A DNA stretch of 64,000 bases from Bryobacterales bacterium (lineage in GTDB: Bacteria; Acidobacteriota; Terriglobia; Bryobacterales; Bryobacteraceae). Under the pieces are notes generated by a model. It was given only the letters and a program-made list of their open reading frames with translations. It was not told where the DNA came from and did no database searches. Below, piece by piece: positions 17,798 through 47,265 of this stretch; the first letter of the stretch is position 1; each line of letters begins with the position of its first letter. The translations under genes were made by a program, and so were the position numbers. The DNA lies in the NCBI GenBank assembly GCA_003170915.1, contig PMYB01000127.1:45566-109565 (forward strand). Direction: 5' to 3'.

Positions 17798-18150
17798 AAA
17801 TTTACCCCACTTCCGTTGCGTGTTTCGGTTTACATCTGAATCGTTAACAAGACGTAAACGCCAGCGTCACGCTCCGGCGATTCAGCCCACGTGCCTTCTG
17901 TATAAGTGTTTCCATCCGCCGCATAAATATCTCCACTCACACTTCCGCACACGTGCGAACAAAAAGTTCTGAATACTCACACGAGATTTAGGGGGTTTCA
18001 ACCTGGAAAAAGTACGCGCGAATTGATTGCGATCAATTGACCGGCCGTACCAGCCGTTAACATGTCTGGCCTCCGACATCAACCCGTAATGCTCCTGCCC
18101 GATAAATCAAAACTTCGGCGGTAATGCTGGCGGTCCGCATAACCCACAGC

Positions 18151-18405
18151 TCAGTTCACACTCACCGTCGGCGGCGGAACCGAATTGGCGAAATATTCAA
18201 CCAGCGCAGCCTGCTTCACGAGCGCCATGCCCAGCCTGTTCGCGAATTCCGGCGTGAAGATTAATGCCAGCCAGCCGTGTTGGGGATGGTGCACCTGGAC
18301 AATACAGCCATTCTTGGCCGCTGCGATCTCCGCCCACCATGGCGGGTCCAGGATGGCGGTAAGGTTGCCCTGGGGCCTGGTATCGTAAACATTGTCGTCT
18401 GGCAT
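18151..18405 (-). CDS. Small orphan protein, paralog copy 2
   Basis: MPDDNVYDTRPQGNLTAILDPPWWAEIAAAKNGCIVQVHHPQHGWLALIF…PPPTVSVN. Confidence 0.7.
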   Translation of the reverse strand: MPDDNVYDTRPQGNLTAILDPPWWAEIAAAKNGCIVQVHHPQHGWLALIFTPEFANRLGMALVKQAALVEYFANSVPPPTVSVN

Positions 18406-18513
18406 ATGCCCTCCCGTTGTTGATTTCACGAACCACGCATCAGAATTTCGTCCCCGGCGCTTCGGGCCTCTTCGGGGCTGACCCCTACTCGACCACACAG
18501 CATAACCCACAGC

Positions 18514-18768
18514 TCAGTTCACACTCACCGTCGATGGCGGCAGCGTCCCCGCGAAATAATCGCACACACCAGAGTGTCTGACGAGCGCCGCTCCCAGCAT
18601 GGCCGCGTGCTCCGGCGGGAAGACAAACGCCAGCCAGCCGTGTTCGGGATGGTGCACCTGGAGAATACTGCCGTTTTTGGCGTTCGTGATATCCACCCAC
18701 CATGGCGGGGTGAAGATGGCAGTAAAGGTGCCTTTTGGCCTTGTATCGAGAACATTCTCATCCGCCAT
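18514..18768 (-). CDS. Small orphan protein, paralog copy 3
   Basis: MADENVLDTRPKGTFTAIFTPPWWVDITNAKNGSILQVHHPEHGWLAFVF…PPSTVSVN. Confidence 0.7.
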   Translation of the reverse strand: MADENVLDTRPKGTFTAIFTPPWWVDITNAKNGSILQVHHPEHGWLAFVFPPEHAAMLGAALVRHSGVCDYFAGTLPPSTVSVN

Positions 18769-18802
18769 TGCATTCCTCCCTCGCAGATTCACGAACCACG
18801 CA

Positions 18803-21800
18803 TCAGAACTTCGTCCCCGGCACCGAAGGCGGACTGCGCACCGATGCGGTCGGGCGCACCTCATCCGTGTTCCTGTCCTTGCGCTGGCCCGGCGCGTTGC
18901 GCCACGGGCTTGGGCTTCGTCTCTCGGGCCGCGTGTCCACACCAGCCGCTCTTTCATCACCGCCGGTGTCGGCGTCAGCTTCGGAACCCCCCTCCGGCCC
19001 GTCTTCGGGCGCAATCTGCCTCTCGCCCTTGTCGAGATCGAGCGCTGCGTTCAGTTCGGCCTGGCGGCCCAGCAGCTCCTTAAGCCGCGCCTCGTGCTCG
19101 AAAGCTTTACCCGCCTGCTCCTGAAAATCCCCCAGCATCTTCTCGGCGCGGGCCGCGCGTTCTTGTTCGTCCGCCACGGCCTTGTCGAGGCCGCGCAGCG
19201 CATATTCGATGCTCTGCATCGTGCCGACCGGATTCTCCGCGTTCAACTGCGCCTTGTAGATCCCCGCGCCCCGGATGAACATCTCCGGCATTCGTTCGTC
19301 TTCCGCGTCGTTCCCCCCTGCCACGCCGAAGCCCCTCTGCGAAGGCGGGTGCCCCCGGCTCAGTATCTCGAAGCCGCGGAATAATCCACGCACCTGCAGG
19401 GTCTGGTCGTCCCGCCACGACAGCACCACCTGCGTGAGCGCCGCCGCTCCTTCCTCGCGCGCGCCCTTGCCGGAATAGACAAGGTTGCCGACGAGCATGG
19501 AGAACTCGTCGCCGGAATGCCCGTCGCGGGTTGTGGCATCGGCTGACAGCCGTTTGATCCTCTCCTGCCTGTCTTTGATCTCGGAGGGCAGCGAGCGAAT
19601 TTGCAGGCGGATGCTGTGCTGCTGGTTGAGATGCGCCGCCCGCAACTGGTCCAGCTTGCGAACCTCGGTATCGATCTTGACCTTTTCCATCACCGCCGGA
19701 TTGCCCGAGGCGATGGCCTTGATTTCCGCGTAGGTGAGGGCGCCGCCGTCGAGATCCTCGGCCGAGCGCACCGACGTGTGGCCGTTCATCACCTGCTGGA
19801 TAAAGCGGGCTTTGGTCTCCAGGGTCTGCCACATATAGGCGTCGAACGAGCCTTCTGTCACGTACCGGAATATCCGCACCTCGCCATTGAGATTGCCCTG
19901 CCGCAGAATGCGCCCCTCGCGCTGCTCGATGTCTCGGGGCCGCCACGGCGCGTCGAGGTGATGCAGGGCGGCGAGCCGCTGCTGCACGTTCGTCCCCGCC
20001 CCCATCTTTTCCGTCGAGCCGATCAGGATACGCACCCTGCCCGCGTTCACCGAATCGAACAGCAGCTTCTTTTCCGCATCGGTGTCGGCGTCGTGAATGA
20101 AGGCAATATCCGCCTGCGGCACGCCTGCCTCGATCAGTTTTGTCCGGACCTCATCGTAGACGTTGAAGCGGCCAGCATGGGACGTAGAGCGGTCCGGCGT
20201 CGAGAGATCGCAGAACACAAGCTGGGTTGACCGCGCACTGCTTGTGTCCGTCCACACTTTCCGGATGCGATCCACGGCCAGGCTCAGCTTCGTATCAGGT
20301 TCCGGCCCTGCGAGGGAATCCACCAGCCGCATATCAAGCGCAGCCTTGCGGCCCTCGCCCGTGATCTTCAGCATGTTGTCAACGGAAGGATCGACCCGCG
20401 CCGTGCGCAGCCGCTCGGCGCGCTCCGTCAGCGTCCTGATAAACGCCTTCAGCGGCTCAGACGCGGGAGCCGCGGCGATCTGCGGCTTGCCGCCCGCCAC
20501 CGCGGGGCACGGCAGGTTCAGCATGTCGGCGGTCTGCACGTCGGCGAAGGTCCGAAACATCGAGAGCAGTTCGGGCAGGTTGATGAATTTCGCAAAGCGC
20601 GTGTGCATGCGGTAGCCCGAGCCGTCGGGCGCCAGCTCAAGCGCCGTCACCGCTTCCGCGAAATTAGCCGCCCACGCATCGAAATGCGCCACGCCGCGTT
20701 CCTTGAGAAGATCGGGAGCCAGGTAGCGCAGCATCGTATACATCTCGGCCATGGTGTTCGAGATGGGCGTGCCGGTCGCAAAGACGACGCCCCGCCCGGA
20801 ATTGATCTCGCGCACATAGCGGGTCTTGATGTACATGTCGAGCGCCCGGTTGCTCTCCGAATTCGGCAATCCCGCGATGCGGTTCATTTTCGTGGTGTAG
20901 AACAGGTTTTTGTAGAGATCGGCTTCATCGACGAAGATCTGGTCCACGCCCAGCTCCTCGAAGGTGAGCGCATTGTCCTTTCCCTCGCGGTCGGCGCGCT
21001 CCTTGAGCTTGGCGACGAAGCGCTTTTTGGCTTTCTCCAGTTCCTTCACCAGCCGGGGGTTGTCGCCCCGATCCGCCTTGGCCTCGAGGATCGCCGCCTC
21101 CAGCTCCTCGACCTGCTCCTCGACAAAACGTTTGAACAGCTTGTCCGATACCGGTAAAAACTCGAACGAGCGGTGCGAGACGATCACGGCGTCATAGTTT
21201 CCGCTCGCGATCCGGGCCATCGCCCGCTGACGGTTGCCCGCCGCGAAATGCTCCCGCCCGGCGATGAACAGGCAGGCCTGCGGATACAGCTTGAGGAACT
21301 CCGCGCCCCATTGCTCGACCAGATGATTGGGCACCACGAACATTGGTTTTTTCGCGAGGCCGAGACGGCGCATTTCCATGGCGGCCGCCGCCATCGTCCA
21401 GGTTTTGCCGGCCCCGACGACGTGCGCCAGCAGCGTGCTGCCGCTTTGCACGATGCGCCAGACGGCGGCCTTCTGATGACGCGACAGGTCCCCGTCGCGC
21501 AGATACTCCCGGTTCATGCCGGGCAGTTGCAGGTGAGATCCGTCGAAGCTGCGCAGGCGCAGATTGTTGAAACGGTCGTTATACTCGCGGGCCAGCCGCG
21601 CCGCCCGCGCGCTGTCTTCCCAGACCCACTCCCGGAAGCGATCCTTCAACTGCTGCTGCTTTTCACGCGCGGCCACCGTCTCCTGCTGGTTGATGACCCG
21701 CGACCCGTCCGGCTGCTGGTCATAGGATGTGGGCACACGGCCGTTGAGCGCCTGCTCGATCAGCTCGGAGGCGCGAAACCGCGCCGTGCCGTGGCTCGTG

Positions 21801-28535: not shown

Positions 28536-29116
28536 CCTGTACTCTCAAACAGGCGCAGCACCAGTTCGCCCGGAACATCGCCGCGGATCTCCCTGCGAGG
28601 CATCCCCGCCCTCGTCGATAGCGGCAACACGCTCAGTGGTGAACGGTTCGCCAGTGCATGGTCGCCTGCGACGACTGGATTTTGGCTCCAGCATGGCCGC
28701 CTGTTTCCCGAAGCCCCCTCATCCACGACCCAGGAGCGCATCCCTGACGAAGACTCGGTCATGCCCGGCGAGCAGTTGGTGCTCCTGTAGACCCTCCCGG
28801 CAACCGAGCCCGCTCACCGCTCCAGAGCGGGACGGACGTGCAGCCCCGCACACCGCGAGATTGCCGTTTTATCGCGGTTATGTTCCTGCCGTCTTCCGCA
28901 ACCCTTGTCCGTTCCCGTTTGCCACACGGTTTTCTCATAACCTTGCCGCGATCATGGGCCGGTCGGCGTGCCCCGTCAACGGCGCTGCCCGCTCCATTCG
29001 TCCCTGCGGTCCTCCCGTGTTGGCCGTTCCCCTCCGGTGACAGGTCCCTTCATCCCGCCCGGCCTTTCACTGCCCGCGTCATGAGAAACCCCGACGCAAG
29101 GAAAGAGGAACAGACA

Positions 29117-30022
29117 ATGCAGAATACAGAACGGCAGGATATCTACACCCGCATCACCGGAAAAATCGTCGCTTCCCTGGAGGCGGGCGTCCGTCCCTGG
29201 ATCAGGCCATGGAGCGGAGAGAACGCCGCCGGCAGGATCACACGTCCGCTGCGCCACAACGGCATGCCCTATTCCGGCATCAACATCCTGATGCTGTGGG
29301 CCTCGTCGGTCGAACAGGGCTTCGCCTCGCCAAGCTGGATGACCTTCAGGCAGGCGCTTGAGCTGGACGCCCACGTCCGCAAGGGCGAGAAGGGTTCACT
29401 GGTCGTGTATGCCAACTCGATCACGAAGACCGAGCAGAACGATGCCGGGGAGGATGTCGAGCGCGATATCCATTTCCTGAAAGGCTACACAGTTTTCAAC
29501 TGCGACCAAATTGCGGGACTGCCCGAGCACTACTACGTGAAGCCGGAGCCGAAATTCACCGCCGTCGAGCGTATCGGCCACGCCGAGGCGTTTTTCGCGG
29601 CCACCAAAGCCGATATTCGCTACCGGGGCGGCCAGGCTTACTACGCGCAGGGAGCCGACTATATCCAGATGCCGCCGATTGAGAGCTTCCGCGACGCTGA
29701 ATCGTTTTACGCCACGCTCGGTCATGAATGTTGTCACTGGACGAAGCACCCGTCCCGTCTTGAGCGCGATTTCGGACGCAAGAGCTGGGGCGACGAAGGC
29801 TATGCCGCCGAGGAACTCGTCGCCGAACTGGGGTCCGCGTTCCTGTGCGCCGATCTCGAACTCACCCCGGAGGTCCGCGACGATCATGCCTCCTACATCG
29901 CCTCGTGGGCTCAAGTGCTGAAGAACGACAGCCGCGCGATCTTCACCGCAGCCGCCCACGCGCAGCGCGCCGTCGATTTCCTGCACAGGCTCCAGCCGGA
30001 GCGCATAGAGGCCGCCGCTTAA
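29117..30022 (+). CDS. ArdC-like antirestriction / ssDNA-binding and zinc metallopeptidase-like protein
   Basis: QDIYTRITGKIVASLEAGVRPWIRPW N-terminus and ATLGHECCHWTKHPSRL motif typical of ArdC relatives. Confidence 0.92.
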   Translation: MQNTERQDIYTRITGKIVASLEAGVRPWIRPWSGENAAGRITRPLRHNGMPYSGINILMLWASSVEQGFASPSWMTFRQALELDAHVRKGEKGSLVVYANSITKTEQNDAGEDVERDIHFLKGYTVFNCDQIAGLPEHYYVKPEPKFTAVERIGHAEAFFAATKADIRYRGGQAYYAQGADYIQMPPIESFRDAESFYATLGHECCHWTKHPSRLERDFGRKSWGDEGYAAEELVAELGSAFLCADLELTPEVRDDHASYIASWAQVLKNDSRAIFTAAAHAQRAVDFLHRLQPERIEAAA

Positions 30023-30238: not shown

Positions 30239-33200
30239 TTACGGTCGTCGACTAGCTGGGCTCAAATCAATTTGCAGCTCTGCTACGATCCCAGCCCGTT
30301 CATTTTCGGGAATCTGGGCCAACAGATAGGTAATCAGATCCTCCTGCCGGCTCTGGCCGAAAACCATGCGGTAGATCGCCAGCGCACGACGCAGCCCATA
30401 TAGGCGCTCTACCTCACGACTGAACGGCAACGCGGGAACATGCCGCTCGATTTTTGCGTCGCCGGGAAACAGCCAGTAAGGCACGAGATCATTTTCCTGA
30501 ACCGACCGCCCTGCCCGGCCCAGCTCAAAAACCGTCTCCCACACATCCGAGTCGCCATGGCTCAAAGCCTTGCCGGCAAATGCCGCCGCAACGTTCTTGC
30601 GGACTGCGTGTCCTTTGTAGCGATGTATCCGACCCTCGCGCTGTTCGAGATCAACGGGGTTCGACGGCAGGTTCCAGTGGGTAACGGCGTGACAGTAATG
30701 ATGAAAATCAAGACCCTCCTGCCCGACGGAGGTTGAAACCAGCACAAACGGCCAGAATGGCGAGTTGAACGCCGCGCGCACGCGCTCCTTGCGCGTTGCC
30801 GGAGACGAGCCATCGAAGACGAGTGGCGCTTCTTCGTCCGAGCGTTCATCGCCAAATCGCATGGCGAAGCGAAGGCGCATCGGTTCAGTCTTGATGTTTA
30901 TTTCGCGGGCATACCGAGGCGCTGTGACTTCATCGATGCGCAGCGATGCAGCGCGGATTGTGAGCGCCGCAATGAGCTCCGCACCAATCTTATCCGCTAT
31001 CACCGCTGCCGGCAGCGCGGCAACGCCGAGCGACTCCCGGAGCAGATGCGCGTATTCATCAAGCACGGCCTGGAGCCCGCCCGCATGCGCGTATTCCAGA
31101 ACACGTTCCCAGTAAGGCTCGCCTCGAAATTCCGAGCGGACGGCTTCGATGACCTCGGCGTGGTTGAAAAGGCTGAGAAAGGATCTTCCCGAGCGTGCCG
31201 CGATGTCACGCAGAGGCAGGCAGGTCGCGGGGTCAGTACGGCTTGCACGCGCGTAGGCGCGCATCGCAGCCGTTGCAGGAGCGGCCGAGGCCGCGAGGGC
31301 CAGAACATTGAAGAGATCGTCCGGGGGCGTGCCGAGATGGTCTTTCCCGCTAAGAATGGAATCGAGTGTCTCCTTCGCCTTCTCGACATGGCTGGACCAG
31401 CCGTCGTCTTCGTCTCCCGCTTCCGTGCCGGCCCATATCTGCGCCAGCTCCGAGCGCTCCCACCATTCCTGCGCCGCGAACGGGAACTCCGCGAAGTCAA
31501 GCAGCATCGGCGCAATCCAGTACCACCGATCATCGGTGTTGGTGGTCGGCTCCTGAACGATCCCGAGCTTTCCAATCAAGCCCTTTATGCGAACGGTGAA
31601 CTGCGCGAGCACCTCTGCCGCCGTCAGACGGGTGCCCCGCGCCAACTCTCGCGGGTCGCAGTGGCGCGCAAACGCAAGACAGGGGTAGATGAGCAAAAGC
31701 ACAGGCAGACCGGTAAGACGGTTGTCCGATATCGTGAACCGCAACAATCCGCGCTGCTTTTTCCAATCGTCCTGCGTCAACTGAGCACGGGGATGGGACG
31801 CCCGCATCATGCGCCGCTCCGCTTCGTACGAAACGAGCGACGCTACGGCGCGCGGAACCATGTGCCAGGCGGAAAAGACCAGCCGTTTTGTCACACTGGC
31901 CAATTCCGGCGCGGCAAACGGCCCCTCAGGAGCGTAGTAGCCAAGCGACGGCGGCATCCAGAGCAGCCGCCACATCCCGCGATCGACGGTTTCAGAGAGT
32001 AGCTCGCGCAGACGCGGATTCGCGGGTTCGACCGGCTTGTAGGTGCGCGCGCACTCCAGATCGAGAAATGTCTCCGGGAACTCCCGTACGAGGCCCACCA
32101 TCTTGCCTTTTTCGGGCGCATCCCTGAAGGCCCGCTTCAGGGCATAGTTATCCATGAAATTAAACAGGTACGGCGCCGACTTCCAATATTCGACGACATC
32201 TCCCTCGTCCACCGTGTCGGCAACGCGCTGTGCGCCCAGAAACGCCCGAACATCGACGGCATGGAGCGAAGCGTCGGCCGGCGGCGCGTCCAGGAGCATT
32301 CCGCCGCGCATGTTCGACGACGCGAGGCGTTCCGTGCGCGCCATCACCCGGCACAGACGCTGCTGGAGCGCGGTTTTTGCTTTCCGCAGTCGCGTCAGCC
32401 CGTCTTGCGTCATCACGGCGGGCAGAGCAGCGCGATATTCCGCCAATATCTCCTTGCAGCCGTCCGCGTCGCTGTTTTCCAGAAAACGCAATAATTCAAG
32501 GAAATCACCGTAGTGATCGTCACCGGTCTCATGATGAAGACTCAGACCGCGATACGGCGTGGCCGAGAGCAGAAGAACGCGGGAGCCCTGGCCCGCCTCC
32601 GAATCAAACAGGCCGCGCGCAAGGTCGCCCGCGTCCGAATCTTCTTTCAGGAGATGTTTGAAACGCTGAAACTCATCCAGAATGATTAAATCCGGCTCCA
32701 GTGTCGCGATACAAACGCGAGCGAGCAACCGTCGCAACTCGCCGATCCACCGCGTCCGCAACTTGGGTGCGTCCGGCGGCACCACAGAGTTGATCCGGCA
32801 GAATATGCCGCGCAACTCTTCGAAGCGCGTGCGCAAGTCCGGCTTCCCGGCGGCTACATCTTCCTGCACCTGCTTCGCCAGGACGGAAACAAACTCATCC
32901 GCAATCTGCTTATTCAGTTTCTCGAAGTCAAACGCATCCAATCCCCGCTTGAAGGGAGCCGTCCCCGCATAATCCTGCATCACGTAAACCGAAGCCCGTG
33001 AGCCGTGTATTCCCCATGCGCGATCGAGCAGCCAGTAAAGCAGAACCCGTTCATCGATGCGCCCGCCGCCGCCGGTCTGCTCGAAGGACGTAGCGGGGGT
33101 CAGCGCCACGAAGTTGACGCGATGGCTTCGGAGGTCCTGCATTTGCAGCGGCAGCAAGGTCAGGCGCGTTGCCTGCGCTGCTTCCTCGCATCCCGGTATT

Positions 33201-33484
33201 TTGAGGCGGTCTATGTTTTGGCGGGCGATGTCCGCGTTCGAACAGATATAGATCACATCAATGCGGCGCGATTTGTTGCGCAACACTTCATCCCAAAGGT
33301 GGTCAATTGTTCGCGCAATCACGCCGCGTGCGACGAGGGTCTTGCCCAATCCCACTTCGTCGGCGACGAGAAACCGCCGCGTCGGGTCCGGCCCGTAGAA
33401 CCGGTCAAAAACATAGTTGACCGTCGCCGTCTGAAAATCCTTCAGGCCTGCGAGAGCCGACGATGTGTCAGGGCGCGTGCTCAT
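30239..33484 (-). CDS. SNF2/SF2-type helicase
   Basis: FLVADEVGLGKTLVARGV (Walker A), DLIILDEFQRF (Walker B), GQEGLDFHHYCHAVTHWNLPSNPVDLEQREGRIHRYKGHA (motifs V/VI). Confidence 0.9.
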   Translation of the reverse strand: MSTRPDTSSALAGLKDFQTATVNYVFDRFYGPDPTRRFLVADEVGLGKTLVARGVIARTIDHLWDEVLRNKSRRIDVIYICSNADIARQNIDRLKIPGCEEAAQATRLTLLPLQMQDLRSHRVNFVALTPATSFEQTGGGGRIDERVLLYWLLDRAWGIHGSRASVYVMQDYAGTAPFKRGLDAFDFEKLNKQIADEFVSVLAKQVQEDVAAGKPDLRTRFEELRGIFCRINSVVPPDAPKLRTRWIGELRRLLARVCIATLEPDLIILDEFQRFKHLLKEDSDAGDLARGLFDSEAGQGSRVLLLSATPYRGLSLHHETGDDHYGDFLELLRFLENSDADGCKEILAEYRAALPAVMTQDGLTRLRKAKTALQQRLCRVMARTERLASSNMRGGMLLDAPPADASLHAVDVRAFLGAQRVADTVDEGDVVEYWKSAPYLFNFMDNYALKRAFRDAPEKGKMVGLVREFPETFLDLECARTYKPVEPANPRLRELLSETVDRGMWRLLWMPPSLGYYAPEGPFAAPELASVTKRLVFSAWHMVPRAVASLVSYEAERRMMRASHPRAQLTQDDWKKQRGLLRFTISDNRLTGLPVLLLIYPCLAFARHCDPRELARGTRLTAAEVLAQFTVRIKGLIGKLGIVQEPTTNTDDRWYWIAPMLLDFAEFPFAAQEWWERSELAQIWAGTEAGDEDDGWSSHVEKAKETLDSILSGKDHLGTPPDDLFNVLALAASAAPATAAMRAYARASRTDPATCLPLRDIAARSGRSFLSLFNHAEVIEAVRSEFRGEPYWERVLEYAHAGGLQAVLDEYAHLLRESLGVAALPAAVIADKIGAELIAALTIRAASLRIDEVTAPRYAREINIKTEPMRLRFAMRFGDERSDEEAPLVFDGSSPATRKERVRAAFNSPFWPFVLVSTSVGQEGLDFHHYCHAVTHWNLPSNPVDLEQREGRIHRYKGHAVRKNVAAAFAGKALSHGDSDVWETVFELGRAGRSVQENDLVPYWLFPGDAKIERHVPALPFSREVERLYGLRRALAIYRMVFGQSRQEDLITYLLAQIPENERAGIVAELQIDLSPASRRP

Positions 33485-35322
33485 TTTGCCATCGCCTGCC
33501 GGGCGGCATCCCAGATGGGACCCCATATTTTCTGGAAATCGTCGCTGAGCAGCTCCGAACTCCCCTGCTGCTTCCGGAGAACGTCTAGCAGAGATTCGAC
33601 GCGTTCGAGTTGCGCCGGACTGCGATGAAGGGCGCGAAGCATCGTTTCCAGCAAATAGGGATTCTGTGAGCCGCGTTCCGAACCGTCCCCCGGAGACTTG
33701 AGCAACCGGCGCAGATCGCCGGAAGAAGCGGCCGCTTCATCGCCACAGGCAAGGAGGAAGAGGATATAGCGGAGCAATTGATCGCGGTTCTCGATCAGCG
33801 AACGCACAACCCGATCCTGCCGGTCTTCCGGCGCGCCATGGAGCGGAAGATTCATGACAAACACTGCGTTGCGCTCCGTCTCATCGATTTTCGCGGTAAT
33901 AGAAAAGGCAATGAGAGGCGTCAGCCCCCCGTACGATAGCCGGGGAAACACGATTGATTTGCCGAGTGCCTGACCCCGCTCCGCTTGCTGTGTTATCGGC
34001 CATGCACGCGTCTCGACCGCCGCACTTGGCCAACGTGGCGCGCTCCCCCACTCAAGCCTCATATCAAACAGGTCTTTTTCATCCGCAGCGGTGACGATCA
34101 GCCGGGGACTCGCCGCGGCTATCGCTCGCTTCATGGCCTGGAGCAGGTCGTCGAGCTTCTGCGCCGTCGCGTCGACCGGCACAGACGGCGCGTTCACGTC
34201 GTATGTCTTGAGAAGGTCCGCAAAAGTCGTCTCACCCTTCACTTGCTGGAGAAACTGCTCAACCCCGAACCGGCTCTTCTTGCCCACGAGTTCGACCATG
34301 AACTCGACGTTGTGCTCCAAGGCAGGGACGGTCGCATTGAACGAGCCGCTGAATATGCTAGCGTCCCAGCCGCGGTCAATGACGAAGAGCTTCGCGTGCA
34401 GGCCCTCCAGCACTTCATCTTTTCCAGACGGGGCATCATCATCATCAGACTCATCGACAAGTTCTGGCGCCAGATAGCTGACGCTCTTGCAACGCTGCAA
34501 GGTCTTTTGTGGCAGTTCCTGCAGACACTCGGAACGGGATACCAGATGCGTCTCGCCGGTGTGATCCAGGAAATCATCCACAACGGAATTTGAGATGAAA
34601 GGCGAAACGATCAATGCCTTGTCTTGTCGCGCCCCGAAGGGCGCAACGGTTCTTCCGTCCAGTCCCGCGACCCAGAAGCGGCATTGGTGTTCATCGAAGC
34701 CGTCAGGCCAAGTGAAACGCACCCGCCGCAGTTCGTCCGCAATCTTCTCCACCCCCTGACGACGCCCGCGCGGCAGCGGGCGCAGGGCGAGACCGGGCAG
34801 CGCCGCTACCAGATCGCCGAGAGGATGATTGACCGCGATGGCATTCGAGCGGTCTGTCAGTTCGCCATCGAGCGCGACAACAGTGTCCCAGCAACGGTCG
34901 AAAGTCAGGTTGCGGCTCAGGCAGAGGACGCGGTAGCGGATCGCGCCATCGCCGGCAATGAAGCGCAGCGCCCATACCTTCGGGTGAAACACGCCATCCG
35001 CGTCGGGCGCCTCCACATCGTAGATGCATGGTTCCAGGAACGTGACCAGAGGCGGATACTTGCGAGGCAACCGGATTTGCCCGCTCTGGCAGAAGATCGT
35101 GAATCGATCCCCATAGCGCCTTAATGCTTCCAGCAAGGCCAGCGGATCGGCAACCAGTTCGCCGTCCTCGTGCTCCCAGTCGAAGAAGGCGAACGAGAGC
35201 GGGAGCATCAGCGCACTGATGAGATCGAGCGAATACGTGGTGCCGACGGCAACGTCGAGCGTGCAGCCAGCCGGAGGACGGAGCAGCTCCAGCAAATGTT
35301 GTCTCTCGTCCGGCCTAAGCAT
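33481..35322 (-). CDS. Phospholipase D-like (HKD) domain protein
   Basis: HAKLFVIDRGWDASIFSGSFNATVPALEHNVEF (HxKx4D…GSFN). Confidence 0.85.
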   Translation of the reverse strand: MLRPDERQHLLELLRPPAGCTLDVAVGTTYSLDLISALMLPLSFAFFDWEHEDGELVADPLALLEALRRYGDRFTIFCQSGQIRLPRKYPPLVTFLEPCIYDVEAPDADGVFHPKVWALRFIAGDGAIRYRVLCLSRNLTFDRCWDTVVALDGELTDRSNAIAVNHPLGDLVAALPGLALRPLPRGRRQGVEKIADELRRVRFTWPDGFDEHQCRFWVAGLDGRTVAPFGARQDKALIVSPFISNSVVDDFLDHTGETHLVSRSECLQELPQKTLQRCKSVSYLAPELVDESDDDDAPSGKDEVLEGLHAKLFVIDRGWDASIFSGSFNATVPALEHNVEFMVELVGKKSRFGVEQFLQQVKGETTFADLLKTYDVNAPSVPVDATAQKLDDLLQAMKRAIAAASPRLIVTAADEKDLFDMRLEWGSAPRWPSAAVETRAWPITQQAERGQALGKSIVFPRLSYGGLTPLIAFSITAKIDETERNAVFVMNLPLHGAPEDRQDRVVRSLIENRDQLLRYILFLLACGDEAAASSGDLRRLLKSPGDGSERGSQNPYLLETMLRALHRSPAQLERVESLLDVLRKQQGSSELLSDDFQKIWGPIWDAARQAMAK

Positions 35323-36556
35323 CGGGTGCCTCCAGGCCATCGAAAATGTCTCCGAGCAATCGCTGGCTTATGAACCACCTGAATTCCAGCTGGGCCGTGC
35401 CGGAATCGCCAGTCCACAGTTCCTGTGCGCGGGGATTGTCTATGCGGGCCAGGCTCTTTTTCAGCCGGCGTTCACGGTCGCGAATCAACAGACGGGCGGC
35501 TGGATCATCGCGCAGGCGCACTGCATCGCCCGCCAAGGCGAGGTCCCACCAGGTATTGATGAATTCGTGGGTAGGGCCGGTAATCCGCGGATTGACAGAA
35601 CGGACCAGTTCCCAGAAACGCTCCCTTTTCCAGTGCGCCAGCACACGGGAGCGCGCAGACAGCGATTTCGCCCACTCTGCGAAACTTCGACGATACTTCG
35701 CAACGCCCTCGTCCCAGTGGGCCTGTTCCGCCAGAATCAGATTGTAAAGCAAAGGCGCGCCGTGCATGGCCTCCGAGAAATTCTGCGCGTGATCGAGTAT
35801 TTCGCGTATTTTCGGCGGCAATTTGGCGCAATGCGGGTGCTCCCACGCGAACGACACATCGTCGTTGCGTCGCCGCTGCGCGACCAGCTCTGCAAGCAGC
35901 GAGCCGGAGCAAGCCGGGCTCAGGCGGATGCGCTCGGCGAGATATTCCGCTTCGCTGCGCGTCAGGCTCAAGGAACACTCTTTCGGGAAATCATCCGGCG
36001 GCGGGACTATCCCTGCGTGCCAGTTCGGTGAAATGAGATCGTCGTGCTCGGCATCACGCTCCGACGCGCGTCCCCCCTGCCGCGTGAGCTGCACATAATA
36101 CCGATCGAGGCTGCGGTGATACTGGACCTGCGCTCCCCTGAAGGATCGAATCCCCCATACACTGAGCCCCTGCCAATAAACACTGCTCGGAAGCCGTTTG
36201 AGGGTAGTCTTCGCCAGCTTGCCGATATTCCCGTCGTTGTCATCCGACCGCTCTATGGGCTCAACAAGGTTTAGCTCCGCCTGCCGCGCGCGCGCTGCTA
36301 TCTCTCTCGATCCGACGCGCAGTCTTTCCAGCCTCTGATACGCCCAAGGGACGAGAAGAAAGTACCGCGCTCGGGTCATGATCGTGCTCGTACCGGGGAA
36401 GAGCATGTCGGCGAACGCGTCACGCACGGAGCCAACGCCAAGCTCGTCGCGCGTGTCGTGTTCTCTGAAAAGATCGACGACATCGAGCATCTTCCGACGC
36501 TCACGCTCCGAGTAATCCAACCAGACAAACGCCGACATCATGCTGCCGTCTCTCAT
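35315..36556 (-). CDS. DUF6361-like protein
   Basis: FVWLDYSERERRKMLDVVDLFREHDTRDELGVGSVRDAFADMLFPGTSTIMTRARYFLLVPWAYQRLER pattern; ATG overlaps the Fic stop as ATGA. Confidence 0.75.
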   Translation of the reverse strand: MRDGSMMSAFVWLDYSERERRKMLDVVDLFREHDTRDELGVGSVRDAFADMLFPGTSTIMTRARYFLLVPWAYQRLERLRVGSREIAARARQAELNLVEPIERSDDNDGNIGKLAKTTLKRLPSSVYWQGLSVWGIRSFRGAQVQYHRSLDRYYVQLTRQGGRASERDAEHDDLISPNWHAGIVPPPDDFPKECSLSLTRSEAEYLAERIRLSPACSGSLLAELVAQRRRNDDVSFAWEHPHCAKLPPKIREILDHAQNFSEAMHGAPLLYNLILAEQAHWDEGVAKYRRSFAEWAKSLSARSRVLAHWKRERFWELVRSVNPRITGPTHEFINTWWDLALAGDAVRLRDDPAARLLIRDRERRLKKSLARIDNPRAQELWTGDSGTAQLEFRWFISQRLLGDIFDGLEAPDA

Positions 36557-38118
36557 GAAGAAGCCTTTGGGACCGCAGGCAGCGGTTCGCCGGCTAGTCC
36601 TTTCTCCACCAGACCGGCCAGAAGATTTGTAAAGGGAACAATATCCTCGCCGACACTCGCTTTTTCGAGGGCCTCCATGTAAATCGTGCGGTCGCCGACG
36701 GGTATGACTGTCCACGGATATCCGCCCGACGCCAGCATCAGATTCATCAGAAAGCGCCCCATGCGACCGTTCCCATCCATATAGGGATGGATATACACGA
36801 ACACAAAATGCCCCAGGACAACCCTCACCGCCGGGTCTTTTTCCTCGCGCAGCAGCTCGAAGAATGCGGGCATGGCATCCCTCACCGCCTCGCGGTTCAG
36901 CGGCACATGCATGGACCGGCGAATGTAAACCTGCCCGTTGCGATAGCCGGCAAGGTCGGCGGGTTTCAGCAAGCCGGCCGTCACGCTCGGGGCAAACATT
37001 TCCCGGTACCACGTTCCGTGATCTTCATCCGCGACCAGGCCCGGATTGTCGCCATGCAGAACCCTGCCGACGCTTTTCTGGACAGCCTGATAGGCCTGCC
37101 AGTACCCGCGCGCAGCCATGGCGTTCCGCTGGTGCCTGTCCTCTTCATTCTTATCCGGGTTCCATTTGCCGCCGCGGACCCGTTCGATCAGCTCGGTGCT
37201 GACGCGGTATCCCTCGATCGACAGCGAATGATAGGCGTCGGTCACGTAAGCCTCGCCGACGCGTTTCATGTAAGCGCTGATATTGCGCGGGAGGCCCGGA
37301 GCCTTCGGGAATCGGTCGATGACGGGTTCGCGCATCTTCTGCCACAACAGCCGTATGCGATTCACGTAAGGAGATGTCTCGCGGGCGGGCAGAGCGAGGG
37401 ACGGTTTGTCCGTGAAGGGGTCGTTTTCACGCACATCGTACCCCGCAGCCGACATTGTCCTCGTAATATCGTCCGCGATGCGGTCACGTCCGCTGTTGCG
37501 GAAGGCACCGGCAAGGCGGCCGGCAATCGTGCTGTGCCCTCCTTCCAGTAACCGGGCAAGAAGGCCGGAGGCATCGCGGATCGTCGCCAACGCTGCGCGA
37601 ACGTCTGTCGAGTTGCGGGAAAAATGGTTCGGCGAACACTCAATCAGCGCCGATTCCACCGAGAAAACGCGCAGACCTTCCTTTTCCTCCGCGTCGCCTG
37701 CTGCGGGCAATGCGGCACGAAGATCCAGCAGCGACGTGCCATGCGGAAGGCTGGTGACTTTGTTGCGGGCTTTGGGGGACCTCACGACCAGTTGCCGGGG
37801 CACCGTCCAGTTGCCTGCATGAAGAGAGAGCGATTGTTCCGGCGAGAGGCACCAGTTCTTGCCAAAGCGCTCTTCCAGATAGACGGCCGAAAAACGCCAG
37901 AACGACGCATACCAGGCCGTGCTCTCCCCCTTCACTTCATCCGGGCGGCTCGGGATATACCAGCCTTTCATGACCTCCTGCAGGAAGCCGTTTGCGAGCA
38001 GACGCTCCCGATGGGTCCGCGTCAGATCCATCGACCTTATCGCTGCCGCCCCGTTGGAACTCTGGAGCTTGCTGAGCATTTCCAGAGACTGCGCGAGCTT
38101 TTCTGACGGCGCCGGCAT
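36553..38118 (-). CDS. Fic family protein with N-terminal wHTH-like region
   Basis: FVYIHPYMDGNGRMGRFLMNLML Fic motif; SLSIEGYRVS inhibitory-type motif; HRERLLANGFLQEVMKGWYIPSRPDE AbiEi-like wHTH; SD GAGGA before ATG 38118. Confidence 0.9.
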   Translation of the reverse strand: MPAPSEKLAQSLEMLSKLQSSNGAAAIRSMDLTRTHRERLLANGFLQEVMKGWYIPSRPDEVKGESTAWYASFWRFSAVYLEERFGKNWCLSPEQSLSLHAGNWTVPRQLVVRSPKARNKVTSLPHGTSLLDLRAALPAAGDAEEKEGLRVFSVESALIECSPNHFSRNSTDVRAALATIRDASGLLARLLEGGHSTIAGRLAGAFRNSGRDRIADDITRTMSAAGYDVRENDPFTDKPSLALPARETSPYVNRIRLLWQKMREPVIDRFPKAPGLPRNISAYMKRVGEAYVTDAYHSLSIEGYRVSTELIERVRGGKWNPDKNEEDRHQRNAMAARGYWQAYQAVQKSVGRVLHGDNPGLVADEDHGTWYREMFAPSVTAGLLKPADLAGYRNGQVYIRRSMHVPLNREAVRDAMPAFFELLREEKDPAVRVVLGHFVFVYIHPYMDGNGRMGRFLMNLMLASGGYPWTVIPVGDRTIYMEALEKASVGEDIVPFTNLLAGLVEKGLAGEPLPAVPKASS

Positions 38119-38130
38119 AGTGTCCTCACG

Positions 38131-38212
38131 TTAGCTTATTGCGCTGTGCGCTTATTAGCTTATTCAGTTGTACCACAATTAGTTTATTGTGTCGAGCGGA
38201 AATTAGCTTTTC
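38131..38212. repeat. Four direct repeats (TTAGCTTATT-type) at exact 24-bp spacing, upstream of the Fic gene
   Basis: TTAGCTTATT at 38131 and 38155, TTAGTTTATT at 38179, TTAGCTTTTC at 38203. Confidence 0.85.
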
Positions 38213-38283
38213 CTGCTGCGAGCCTAACACCGTGTTGCGCCTGCATCCAACGTCGTACCAAGCGTTGCCGCCTGACTCCGTGC

Positions 38284-40203: not shown

Positions 40204-40446
40204 CTACTGCACCATCTCGTTTCCGGCCAGCTTCGTCATTTCATAGCGCAGGATGCAGTAATAGGCCGTGACGAGAAGATTGAACGACGCATCGATCATC
40301 GTGATGATCTCCTCGATGTTCGTTTTCACCGCCTCGCCGCGCAAAAAATCCATCGCCTTCAAAATCTGTGACGCCTTGGCGAAGTCGTACGTGTACTTCT
40401 CCCCCGCGTGCAAACCCAGTTCTTCAAGGCTAGGCGGCTCTGACAT
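40204..40446 (-). CDS. Small hypothetical protein coupled to luxI
   Basis: ORF of 80 aa whose start lies inside the 3' end of the luxI-like gene (17-bp overlap). Confidence 0.6.
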   Translation of the reverse strand: MSEPPSLEELGLHAGEKYTYDFAKASQILKAMDFLRGEAVKTNIEEIITMIDASFNLLVTAYYCILRYEMTKLAGNEMVQ

Positions 40447-41071
40447 TCTCTTGTTCTCCTTCGTGGCATGTGAATCTCAAGACGCTGTCTGTGATGCCGG
40501 TTTTGCGGCGCACATTCGCGAGCTGCTGCGCCGTCACCGGAATCGCCACCGCCCGGCATTTGTGGCGGCCGAGCGCCTCGACCGGCCCGAGATACTCCAT
40601 CTCGATGCCGGGCCGCTCGAACACGCTGCGGTAGATATAGGTGGGCATCAGCCCGATGATCTTCTTCAGCCCGAGCCGAAGCCCGAACTCCAGATAGCCA
40701 CAGGCCATCTCGTGGATGATGCGCTGCCTCAGCTCCGGTGGCGCATCCTTGTCCACGCAGTAGCGCGTGCCTTCCCAGACCGCTTGCGATTGCAGCAGGG
40801 ATTTGTCCTGTACCAGGTGCGGCCACAGATCCCGGAGCATGCAGGACAGCACGGTCGGCGTCAGGCGGCTCACGCCCAGCGCCTGCCCCTCATCCGTGTG
40901 GTAGACGAGATAGCGGCTGGCCGGCGTGTCGTACCGGTCGAACTCCATGCCGTCATAGACCGAAACATCGTATTGCTGCCGCTCGACGAACCCCCCATAG
41001 CGCAGCCTGAACTGCGAATGAAAGGCGGGTCCGAACTCGTGGACGTTCTCGGCTGATATACATGAAATCAT
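40430..41071 (-). CDS. luxI-like: LuxI-family acyl-homoserine-lactone synthase
   Basis: FRLRYGGFVERQQYDVSVYDGMEFDRYDTPASRYLVYHTDEGQALGVSRLTPT…QAVWEGTRYCVD. Confidence 0.88.
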   Translation of the reverse strand: MISCISAENVHEFGPAFHSQFRLRYGGFVERQQYDVSVYDGMEFDRYDTPASRYLVYHTDEGQALGVSRLTPTVLSCMLRDLWPHLVQDKSLLQSQAVWEGTRYCVDKDAPPELRQRIIHEMACGYLEFGLRLGLKKIIGLMPTYIYRSVFERPGIEMEYLGPVEALGRHKCRAVAIPVTAQQLANVRRKTGITDSVLRFTCHEGEQENVRAA

Positions 41072-41161: not shown

Positions 41162-41890
41162 TCAGGGCCTGATCAGCCCATAGGAAAGGGCCTTGCTCAC
41201 GGCCATCACCCGCGTATTGGCGTTGAGCTTTTTGAAAGCCGTCCTGAAATACGAGTCAACCGTGTCCTCGCTCAGGTTGAGGATGGTGCCGATCTCGCCG
41301 TCCGTCTTCCCGCTTGCAGCCCAGGTCAGGACCTCGTCCTCGCGCGGCGTCAGATAAATCCGTCTTTCCGCAAAATCCGTTTTTCGGTTTATGCGCTGAA
41401 AGGCAATGTAGAAGTGGTTGCAGTAAGCAGTGATCAGATCGAGATTGCCATCGAATGAGTCGAGCTTCTCGGCGCTCGCGAGGCCGATCCCGGCAAACTG
41501 GTTCGGTCCCCACAGCGGCGTGCAGGTGCCGTTATACAGCCCCGCCTCGATGCCCATATTCAGGCACTGGAACTGCTGTCTGGTCATGTGCATCCGCTCG
41601 GGAATCTCCGCCCAGGTGAAGGTGACCATTTTGCTCTGGCAATAGCTGATGACCGGATCGAGACGGTCGTAGCCCTTCTCGAAATAGTGCTTCATCCAGT
41701 CTTCGGGGTAATTCTGGATGACGCCCACACCCGGCTTCATGTCGATATGATCGTGATTCGTCTGGAGACAGAAGATCATCCGGTCAAGCCCGTGCTGCTT
41801 GACCGTGGCTAAAAACTCCTTCACCAGCTCATCCGTCGTCCGGGCGCGGTTGGCCTTTTCCACGAATGTTTCGAACGAAACCAGCATCAC
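41162..41890 (-). CDS. luxR-like: LuxR-family regulator with autoinducer-binding domain
   Basis: LTPREDEVLTWAASGKTDGEIGTILNLSEDTVDSYFRTAFKKLNANTRVMAV HTH; N-terminal YFEKGYDRLDPVI…TW. Confidence 0.92.
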   Translation of the reverse strand: MMLVSFETFVEKANRARTTDELVKEFLATVKQHGLDRMIFCLQTNHDHIDMKPGVGVIQNYPEDWMKHYFEKGYDRLDPVISYCQSKMVTFTWAEIPERMHMTRQQFQCLNMGIEAGLYNGTCTPLWGPNQFAGIGLASAEKLDSFDGNLDLITAYCNHFYIAFQRINRKTDFAERRIYLTPREDEVLTWAASGKTDGEIGTILNLSEDTVDSYFRTAFKKLNANTRVMAVSKALSYGLIRP

Positions 41891-45648: not shown

Positions 45649-47265
45649 ATGATCCTGAAGGGCAACCAGCGCGGCGGTGGATCGCAACTGGCTATCCACC
45701 TGATGAACTCGTTCGACAACGAGGTGGTCGAAGTCGCGGATGTTCGCGGCACGGTCGCGCAGGATCTCTCCGGAGCTTTTGCCGAATGGGCCGCCGAGGC
45801 CCGCGCCACCCGCTGCGAAAAATACATCTACAGCCTTTCCCTGAGCCCCGACCAGGCGCAGGGCCGCCTCACCCGCGAGCAATATCTCGACCTGATCGCC
45901 CGCACCGAACGCAGCCTGAAGCTGGTCGACCAGCCGCGCGCCGTGGTTTTCCACGAAAAACGCGACAAGGACGGCACCCTGCGCCAGCACGCGCACGTCG
46001 TCTGGTCGCGCATCGACAGTGAAAAATCCAAGGCCATCCCGATCGGGCACGACCACCTGAAATTGCGCACTGTAGCAAAGGAATTCGCCCGCGATAACGG
46101 GCTGGAACTGCCCGACGGCATGAAGAAGGACGGCAAGCGCGACCGCTTCCAGAGCCGCGCCGAACAGGAAAACCTCGGCGAAAAGCAGCAGCAGGAGCGC
46201 ACCGGCATCACCAAGGCCGGGCGCATGGCCGAGATCGCCGCCTGCTGGACAACCACGAAGACCGGCCCGGAATTCGTCCGCGCCATGGAGGACAAGGGTT
46301 ATTATCTGGCGCACGGCGATCAGCGCGCCTATGTGGTGATAGATCTTTACGGCGAAATCCATAGCCTGTCGCGCCAGCTCGGCGGCGTAGCGAAGAGGAA
46401 AGAACTCATGGAGCGCCTCTCCGCTTATCCACCGGACAAACAGCCCGACGTTGAATCCGCGCGGGCTTACGCCAGCCAGAAATTACAGGAACGGCAGAAG
46501 GCGCTGGAGAAGGGCAGCCAGGAGGTGCAAGAACCGGCGGGGATCGAAAAAAGAAATACAGCCCTTCACGAACGTCAGGCCGCTCGACGCGCCGAACTGG
46601 ATGCGCACCGCGCCGATCTGTACGCCCGCCAGTTCCGCGAGCGCGGGGCGCTGCGCGAGATGCAGGCAGCCGGGAAGGAAGGCGTCGAAGCATCCCGGAT
46701 GGAGCGGCAACCGAAGGGACTAGCCGCGTTCCTGACCCGGATCACCGGCATCGGCAGCCTCGTTTCGTGGGTGCAGAGCAAGGCGGACGCGAGGCGCGAA
46801 GCCACGCACAAGCAGCAGACGCAAACCCTGCTGCGCCATCACGAGCGCGAGCTGAAGGAAATGGACCGTCACTACCTGGCGCTGCACAGGCTGGAGGTGC
46901 GGGAAAACCGCTCCGCTTCCACCGCGGCCCTGCGCGAAGGCTACCGCAAGCTGCGCGTCCGCACCTTCGCGCTCAGACCGGAATTCGATAAAGCCCTGAC
47001 GCGGCCAGAAGCGACGGCAGCCGCAGGCGGTGGAAAAGCCGCCGGATTATTCAACCGCCTCGCCGCCGGCATGGGATTCAGCAAAGGCGACCTGCAAGCC
47101 GCTTTCGCGCGCGCCACCGCCGGCAAAGCCGGATCTTCTGGCGATGCGGACACCAAAGGACACACCCCGGCCGATCCCGAAAAGCTGGAACAGGCCCGCC
47201 AGCTCCGCGACGAACTCAACCGCCGCCAGCCGCGTCCGGGTCCCGACCGGGACCGGGAGCGCTGA
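45649..47265 (+). CDS. Relaxase/mobilisation nuclease
   Basis: ILKGNQRGGGSQLAIHLMN N-terminus; LRQHAHVVWSRID (HxH metal motif); basic C-terminus. Confidence 0.85.
   Translation: MILKGNQRGGGSQLAIHLMNSFDNEVVEVADVRGTVAQDLSGAFAEWAAEARATRCEKYIYSLSLSPDQAQGRLTREQYLDLIARTERSLKLVDQPRAVVFHEKRDKDGTLRQHAHVVWSRIDSEKSKAIPIGHDHLKLRTVAKEFARDNGLELPDGMKKDGKRDRFQSRAEQENLGEKQQQERTGITKAGRMAEIAACWTTTKTGPEFVRAMEDKGYYLAHGDQRAYVVIDLYGEIHSLSRQLGGVAKRKELMERLSAYPPDKQPDVESARAYASQKLQERQKALEKGSQEVQEPAGIEKRNTALHERQAARRAELDAHRADLYARQFRERGALREMQAAGKEGVEASRMERQPKGLAAFLTRITGIGSLVSWVQSKADARREATHKQQTQTLLRHHERELKEMDRHYLALHRLEVRENRSASTAALREGYRKLRVRTFALRPEFDKALTRPEATAAAGGGKAAGLFNRLAAGMGFSKGDLQAAFARATAGKAGSSGDADTKGHTPADPEKLEQARQLRDELNRRQPRPGPDRDRER

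Follow-up and report, generated by a model that had tools for sequence, protein, structure and literature searches.

The array of 24-bp direct repeats in front of the Fic gene is most probably the operator of that gene, bound by the Fic protein, which would limit its own expression by repression (rough probability 0.86). Such autoregulation had been proposed in a preliminary description of the 64-kb window (the whole stretch of DNA analysed here). It is now supported by two lines of evidence: the repeats are found at nearly all orthologues, and differences in repeat sequence between homologues covary with Fic residues.

The repeat array and the protein encoded behind it

The array is located on the minus strand between the start codon of the Fic gene (38118) and position 38220, with a gap of 12 bp to the ATG. 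The sequence TTAGCTTATT begins at 38131 and 38155, TTAGTTTATT at 38179 and TTAGCTTTTC at 38203, with a common period of 24. Read on the gene strand from the Fic gene outward, the cores are AATAAGCTAA, AATAAGCTAA, AATAAACTAA and GAAAAGCTAA, again spaced by 24 bp. The gene-proximal unit 1 covers 38125–38148 (core AATAAGCTAA at 38131–38140), unit 2 covers 38149–38172 (core AATAAGCTAA at 38155–38164), unit 3 covers 38173–38196 (core AATAAACTAA at 38179–38188, within the promoter spacer) and unit 4, which is degenerate, covers 38197–38220 (core GAAAAGCTAA at 38203–38212).

When the window was searched for four 10-mers at one fixed period (15–40 bp) with at least 36 of 40 majority matches, the Fic array was the sole hit (37/40, period 24). 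No array of this kind appeared in 20 Markov-simulated 64-kb windows, and after shuffling the 102-bp array region 3000 times not one shuffle attained the score of the real array. The four units at exact 24-bp spacing (38131–38212) seen in the preliminary description were thus confirmed as a pattern that the controls never yield by chance. Tandem Repeats Finder does not list the Fic array, presumably because the spacers between the cores are not repeated. Elsewhere in the window, at 18137–18821, there is a tandem duplication with a period of 363 bp (1.9 copies, 78% matches).

Embedded in the array is a promoter-like pair on the minus strand, both members being pattern matches: a -35-like hexamer TCGACA at 38190–38195 and a -10-like hexamer TACAAC at 38167–38172. 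Of the upstream regions of 134 homologues, 44 have the exact combination TCGACA-N17-TACAAC and 56 a looser TnGACA-type/TACAAC-type pair, with a spacer of 17 bp in all 56 cases; shuffled sequence contained no TnGACA/TACAAC pair. Each hexamer coincides with the C..C half of a unit, the two units being consecutive, and the spacer contains one core. A generic promoter scan of the window did not list the pair because TACAAC deviates from the rule of the scanner. If bound, the units would cover the -35, the -10 and the predicted start.

The gene itself (36553–38118, minus strand) encodes a protein of 521 amino acids, the putative reader of the array. Its C-terminal Fic domain matches Pfam family PF02661 above the cut-off (E=2.4e-12). 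The catalytic Fic motif HPYMDGNGRMGR (H444-P-Y-M-D-G-N-G-R-M-G-R455; 36754–36789, minus strand) fits the pattern HPxx[DE]GNGRxxR, and in 51 aligned homologues H444, P445, D448, G449, G451, R452 and R455 are invariant and N450 nearly so. N-terminal to it, the motif S298-L-S-I-E302-G303 (37210–37227, minus strand) fits the class II inhibitory pattern [ST]xxxE[GN], with S298, E302 and G303 invariant in the 51 homologues. Judged by its catalytic and inhibitory motifs, the protein is a class II Fic protein and a putative AMPylase. The PADLOC profile for SoFic matches the Fic region in 51/51 aligned homologues, the match being confined to residues 293–470 of the protein (profile positions 59–220 of 361), and a full-length SoFic assignment is excluded by the NCBIfam SoFic model (35 bits vs a cut-off of 550). 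A phage origin of the Fic gene was rejected, as phage records gave weak matches to the Fic region only.

For the N-terminal 241 residues, sequence searches returned no credible Pfam family and no PDB chain. An AlphaFold2 model of the Fic protein was built on 51 homologues (mean pLDDT 89), and Foldseek searches with the N-terminal part of the model returned AbiEi (6y8q, E=3.2e-4, prob 1.00) and Rv2827c (1zel, E=1.3e-3). The model displays the two-part fold of AbiEi, i.e., a winged helix-turn-helix (wHTH) and a helix/strand/helix-bundle domain, a likeness seen by structure comparison only, to which sequence profiles are blind. Given this fold match and the C-terminal Fic domain, we describe the protein as a fusion of an AbiEi-like and a class II Fic domain. 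Across 237 genomes of the source family, nearly all matches to the N-terminal domain were the same Fic genes or fragments of them; one weak match stood apart (46 residues, locus L184, E=4e-7).

Distribution of the array and its genomic setting

The preliminary description had made its proposal depend on finding the same array upstream of homologous Fic genes, and nearly all orthologues do carry it. The homologue sample comprised 80 proteins from species genomes and others from the same family; for each of them, the sequence preceding the start codon was examined. In a self-match test over the last 125 bp before the start codon (97 loci), the best lag was 24 in 81 homologues and 48 in 12, together 93/97. 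Lag 24 was best in only 2/89 control segments from further upstream and in 3/97 coding starts. Among held-out homologues the best lag was 24 or 48 in 36 of 39, and these arrays include those of proteins with only 43–50% identity and completely different cores.

The array spans several phyla, from Acidobacteriota to Pseudomonadota and Bacteroidota, and is found at 24 bp down to ~43% identity. At a 36%-identical homologue (L144), four AATCCGTAATAAT-type units follow each other with a 23-bp period ~100–200 bp upstream of the start; the repeats of AbiEi extend to 23 bp (PMC3985639), equal to the period of this array. Array and Fic gene occur together on both chromosomes and plasmids, the plasmid homologues with an array being from Pseudoalteromonas, Mesorhizobium and Roseobacter, and from Bacteroides thetaiotaomicron with two units. 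A few homologues have weak or short arrays (L126, L127, L143, L191 and L194).

The repeat of 10 bp originally described is real, but the unit conserved across homologues is longer, ~16 bp, and reads C[AG][AG]C..AATAA[G/C/A]C[T/G][A/T][A/G] on the gene strand. Arrays typically hold three to five units, and the median distance from the last core to the start codon is 17 bp. Unit orientation is uniform, with 308 forward vs 4 reverse matches to the position weight matrix at the 97 loci. The operators thus consist of direct repeats only and not of inverted repeats as in AbiEi.

The array does not seem to serve a wider regulon, which we ruled out by searching 27 genomes: every match was at a Fic gene or, in one case, at what remains of one, although the reversed-pattern control of this search still matches true arrays. 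Two matches lay apart from the known homologues. One was at a second copy of Fic, truncated by the end of its contig, and the other at a degraded remnant. In the latter (L205, G1009:C1, at about position 2594), an array stands beside a deleted Fic gene of which the last 31 residues are left, an apparent relic.

Clustering of neighbouring genes showed that no gene recurs beside the Fic family beyond close relatives, the largest cluster comprising 5 loci on mixed strands and sides. This rules out a conserved operon partner or antitoxin. Neither an AbiEii nucleotidyltransferase toxin nor a replication initiator was a conserved neighbour, no neighbour of any kind being recurrent.

In the window, a complete zacABC-like defence operon (30239–36541, minus strand) lies directly behind the Fic gene. 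It encodes a ZacA-like DUF6361 protein (35315–36541; PADLOC ZacA, E=4e-133), a ZacB-like phospholipase-D-type protein (33481–35340; PADLOC ZacB, E=2e-177) and a ZacC-like helicase (30239–33526; PADLOC ZacC, E=0), all on the minus strand. From the stop codon of Fic it is ~12 bp to the start of zacA, unless an overlapping ATGA serves as the start. Since zacABC follows at only ~12 bp, it would be co-transcribed and co-controlled with Fic in this window, perhaps after having been captured under the Fic promoter. Among other homologues with at least 700 bp of downstream sequence, zacABC was found beside none (0/67), and no Fic gene was found upstream of zac loci elsewhere. We therefore rejected both a Zac-specific regulation and a role of Fic as a conserved component of zacABC. 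Open-licence papers in PubMed Central offered nothing usable for Zac and nothing for DUF6361. The "Fic operon" of the preliminary description consequently exists locally, where zacABC directly follows, but not in homologues with enough downstream sequence, and the regulated unit is Fic alone. The Fic gene with its array is a solitary module and zacABC a local association.

Other genes of the window point to mobile DNA. A MobA/VirD2-type relaxase (45649–47265, plus strand) and an ArdC-like antirestriction protein (28838–30022, plus strand) suggest an integrated or plasmid-borne mobile element around Fic and zac. Genes for a LuxI-type autoinducer synthase (Autoind_synth, E=1e-23) and a LuxR-type regulator, at 40430–41071 and 41162–41890 on the minus strand, adjoin a phytanoyl-CoA dioxygenase-like gene and a fatty acid desaturase. 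The LuxI/LuxR pair is a quorum-sensing cassette on the apparent mobile region.

Covariation of operator bases with Fic residues

The cores vary among homologues and include GCTAA, GCGAA, CCTAA, ACTAA, GATAA, ACTTG, GCTTG and others. One six-unit array (L063) mixes the cores GCTAA, GATAA and GCGAA and is possibly caught between specificities, in transition. We compared all residue/base pairs by mutual information with average product correction, and the top pairs were R118 with base 14, and R84, F85 and P115 with base 16. In the window, R84 and F85 (codons 84–85; 37864–37869, minus strand) covary with operator base 16. The hairpin loop S-P-K-A-R-N-K (codons 114–120; 37759–37779, minus strand) contributes residue 115, which covaries with base 16, and residues 117, 118 and 120, which covary with base 14. 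A-R at residues 117–118 goes with G at base 14, G-G or G-D goes with C, and base A is accompanied by a non-R residue followed by N-N; at residues 84–85, RF goes with T at base 16 and LK or VK with G.

Shared ancestry was controlled for with a tree built without columns 78–127, on which edge-disjoint pairs served as independent contrasts. By parsimony, base 14 switched at least ~21 times on this tree, and residue 118 differs in 19/19 independent pairs that differ at base 14. Ranking 509 columns by raw differences put 118, 117, 120 and 114 as the top four for base 14. With distance-matched z-scores, A117 (8.5) came first and R118 (6.8) second for base 14, with columns 120 and 114 outside the top ten. 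For base 16, R84 was first with a z-score of 7.0, from 6 pairs only.

A rule on residues 117–120, derived from the first set, was then applied to held-out homologues (at least 50% identity, exact duplicates removed), whose upstream DNA was visible before the rule was coded and whose residues were unexamined at that time. It called base 14 correctly in 24/24 cases and left 4 uncalled, vs 18/24 for the nearest whole-protein relative. At base 16 the residue rule was right in 26/28, and a constant guess of T, the majority base, was equally right in 26/28, so support for base 16 comes from the independent contrasts alone. Rule breakers were 5/93 first-set loci at base 14 and the Novosphingobium locus L190 at base 16.

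Because operator bases change together with Fic residues, the Fic protein itself appears to read the repeats. This kind of covariation speaks to recognition and is silent on repression or the sign of regulation. The preliminary description had called the product a wHTH-Fic protein; the specificity residues are not in the canonical wHTH. In the model, residues 84–85 form the end of helix 67–85 and residues 115–119 the loop of hairpin 109–114/120–123; the covarying residues hence lie at the end of helix 67–85 and in hairpin 109–123, which belong to the second of the two halves of the AbiEi-like fold and are outside the canonical recognition helix. Their location fits the mode of AbiEi, in which DNA binding reportedly needs positively charged residues of both halves (PMC7319586).

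Proposed function and comparison with known systems

We propose that one Fic monomer would bind each 24-bp unit through its AbiEi-like N-terminal domain, always in the same orientation. The invariant C..C/AATAA part would be read by conserved residues, and the variable core bases 14 and 16 by the hairpin loop 114–120 together with the end of helix 67–85. Three to six monomers could assemble head to tail across the -35, the -10 and the transcription start and switch transcription off, so that the Fic protein, a predicted AMPylase that probably acts as a toxin or stress effector, would be held at a low, self-limited level. Physical binding is suggested by the covariation. Repression, one monomer per unit and cooperativity are suggested by the promoter overlap and the relatives AbiEi, Rv2827c and CccR, and the analogy with Sofic (PMC12249575) makes a role as a stress or defence effector kept low likely. 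Sites spaced by 24 bp would each be turned by ~100 degrees relative to the one before, giving a shallow spiral of monomers and not one face, which is geometry and not evidence.

A bolder version, which we consider unlikely, is a one-gene toxin module in which monomers bound to three to six sites keep the AMPylase both unexpressed and inactive, the operator DNA acts as the antitoxin, and clearing of the array in stress or phage attack frees the enzyme. If so, the hairpin/helix code would insulate modules sharing one cell. It is rather improbable that Fic bound to the array is an activator or a switch of its own transcription and not simply a repressor. Units do also occur upstream of the -35 (unit 4 here), and the covariation leaves the sign undecided, but units also occupy the -35, the -10 and the stretch that separates them and extend downstream across the predicted start, and the relatives that have been measured are autorepressors: CccR (PMC9755527), AbiEi (PMC3985639) and Rv2827c (PMC7319586). 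We give even less credence to an array that is mainly a tether, on which DNA-held Fic monomers are inactive until loss of the array, e.g., in phage attack, releases active AMPylase. The joining of DNA-binding and AMPylase domains in a single chain, the invariant inhibitory motif, the lack of a conserved antitoxin gene and the action of class II Fic enzymes such as Sofic in phage defence (PMC12249575) would suit it; however, few sites could hold just few molecules, and autorepression fully accounts for the promoter overlap.

Binding by a different regulator, encoded elsewhere, is very improbable: Fic binding is something we infer, but operator bases and Fic residues shift together in independent lineages, no regulator gene is conserved beside this solitary gene, and the array accompanies Fic across phyla and plasmids. 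Finally, an iteron-like role, also raised in the preliminary description, or a partition site can practically be dismissed. Direct repeats of about two helical turns look iteron-like and the window contains mobile-element genes such as the relaxase, but the array lies immediately in front of Fic in all cases, whether on chromosomes or plasmids, has a promoter-like pair embedded in it and has no conserved replication gene beside it.

The array and gene define a widespread solitary family that combines an AbiEi-like domain, a predicted Fic AMPylase and an operator of evenly spaced direct repeats. As residues 117–120 predict base 14, the family offers a ready-made protein–DNA recognition code for the AbiEi fold, for which open-licence papers in PubMed Central gave no base-level code. 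It may also serve as a set of potentially orthogonal repressors, with the covarying residues marking the DNA-binding surface to mutate first.

Parts of this arrangement are known from other systems. Sofic is likewise a single-protein class II Fic, but it is reportedly followed by a small antitoxin gene, AS1, and no 24-bp array is described (PMC12249575). CccR of Yersinia pseudotuberculosis (PMC9755527) likewise joins a class II Fic domain to a DNA-binding domain and represses its own promoter; it differs in its C-terminal helix-turn-helix and in binding as a dimer to a pair of 10-bp inverted repeats separated by 26 bp and not to a direct-repeat array. Rv2827c of M. tuberculosis (1zel; PMC7319586) shares the AbiEi fold, several sites in one promoter and autorepression, whereas its sites are four inverted repeats with graded affinity and negative cooperativity, and it has no fused enzyme. 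AbiEi of S. agalactiae (6y8q) has the same two-part fold as the Fic N-terminal domain; both halves of its monomer take part in reading a repeat of up to 23 bp, and it is an autorepressor of the promoter holding its sites (PMC3985639, PMC7319586). AbiEi, however, is a separate antitoxin paired with AbiEii and uses inverted repeats, whereas here the domain is part of the Fic protein and the repeats are direct, spaced by 24 bp.
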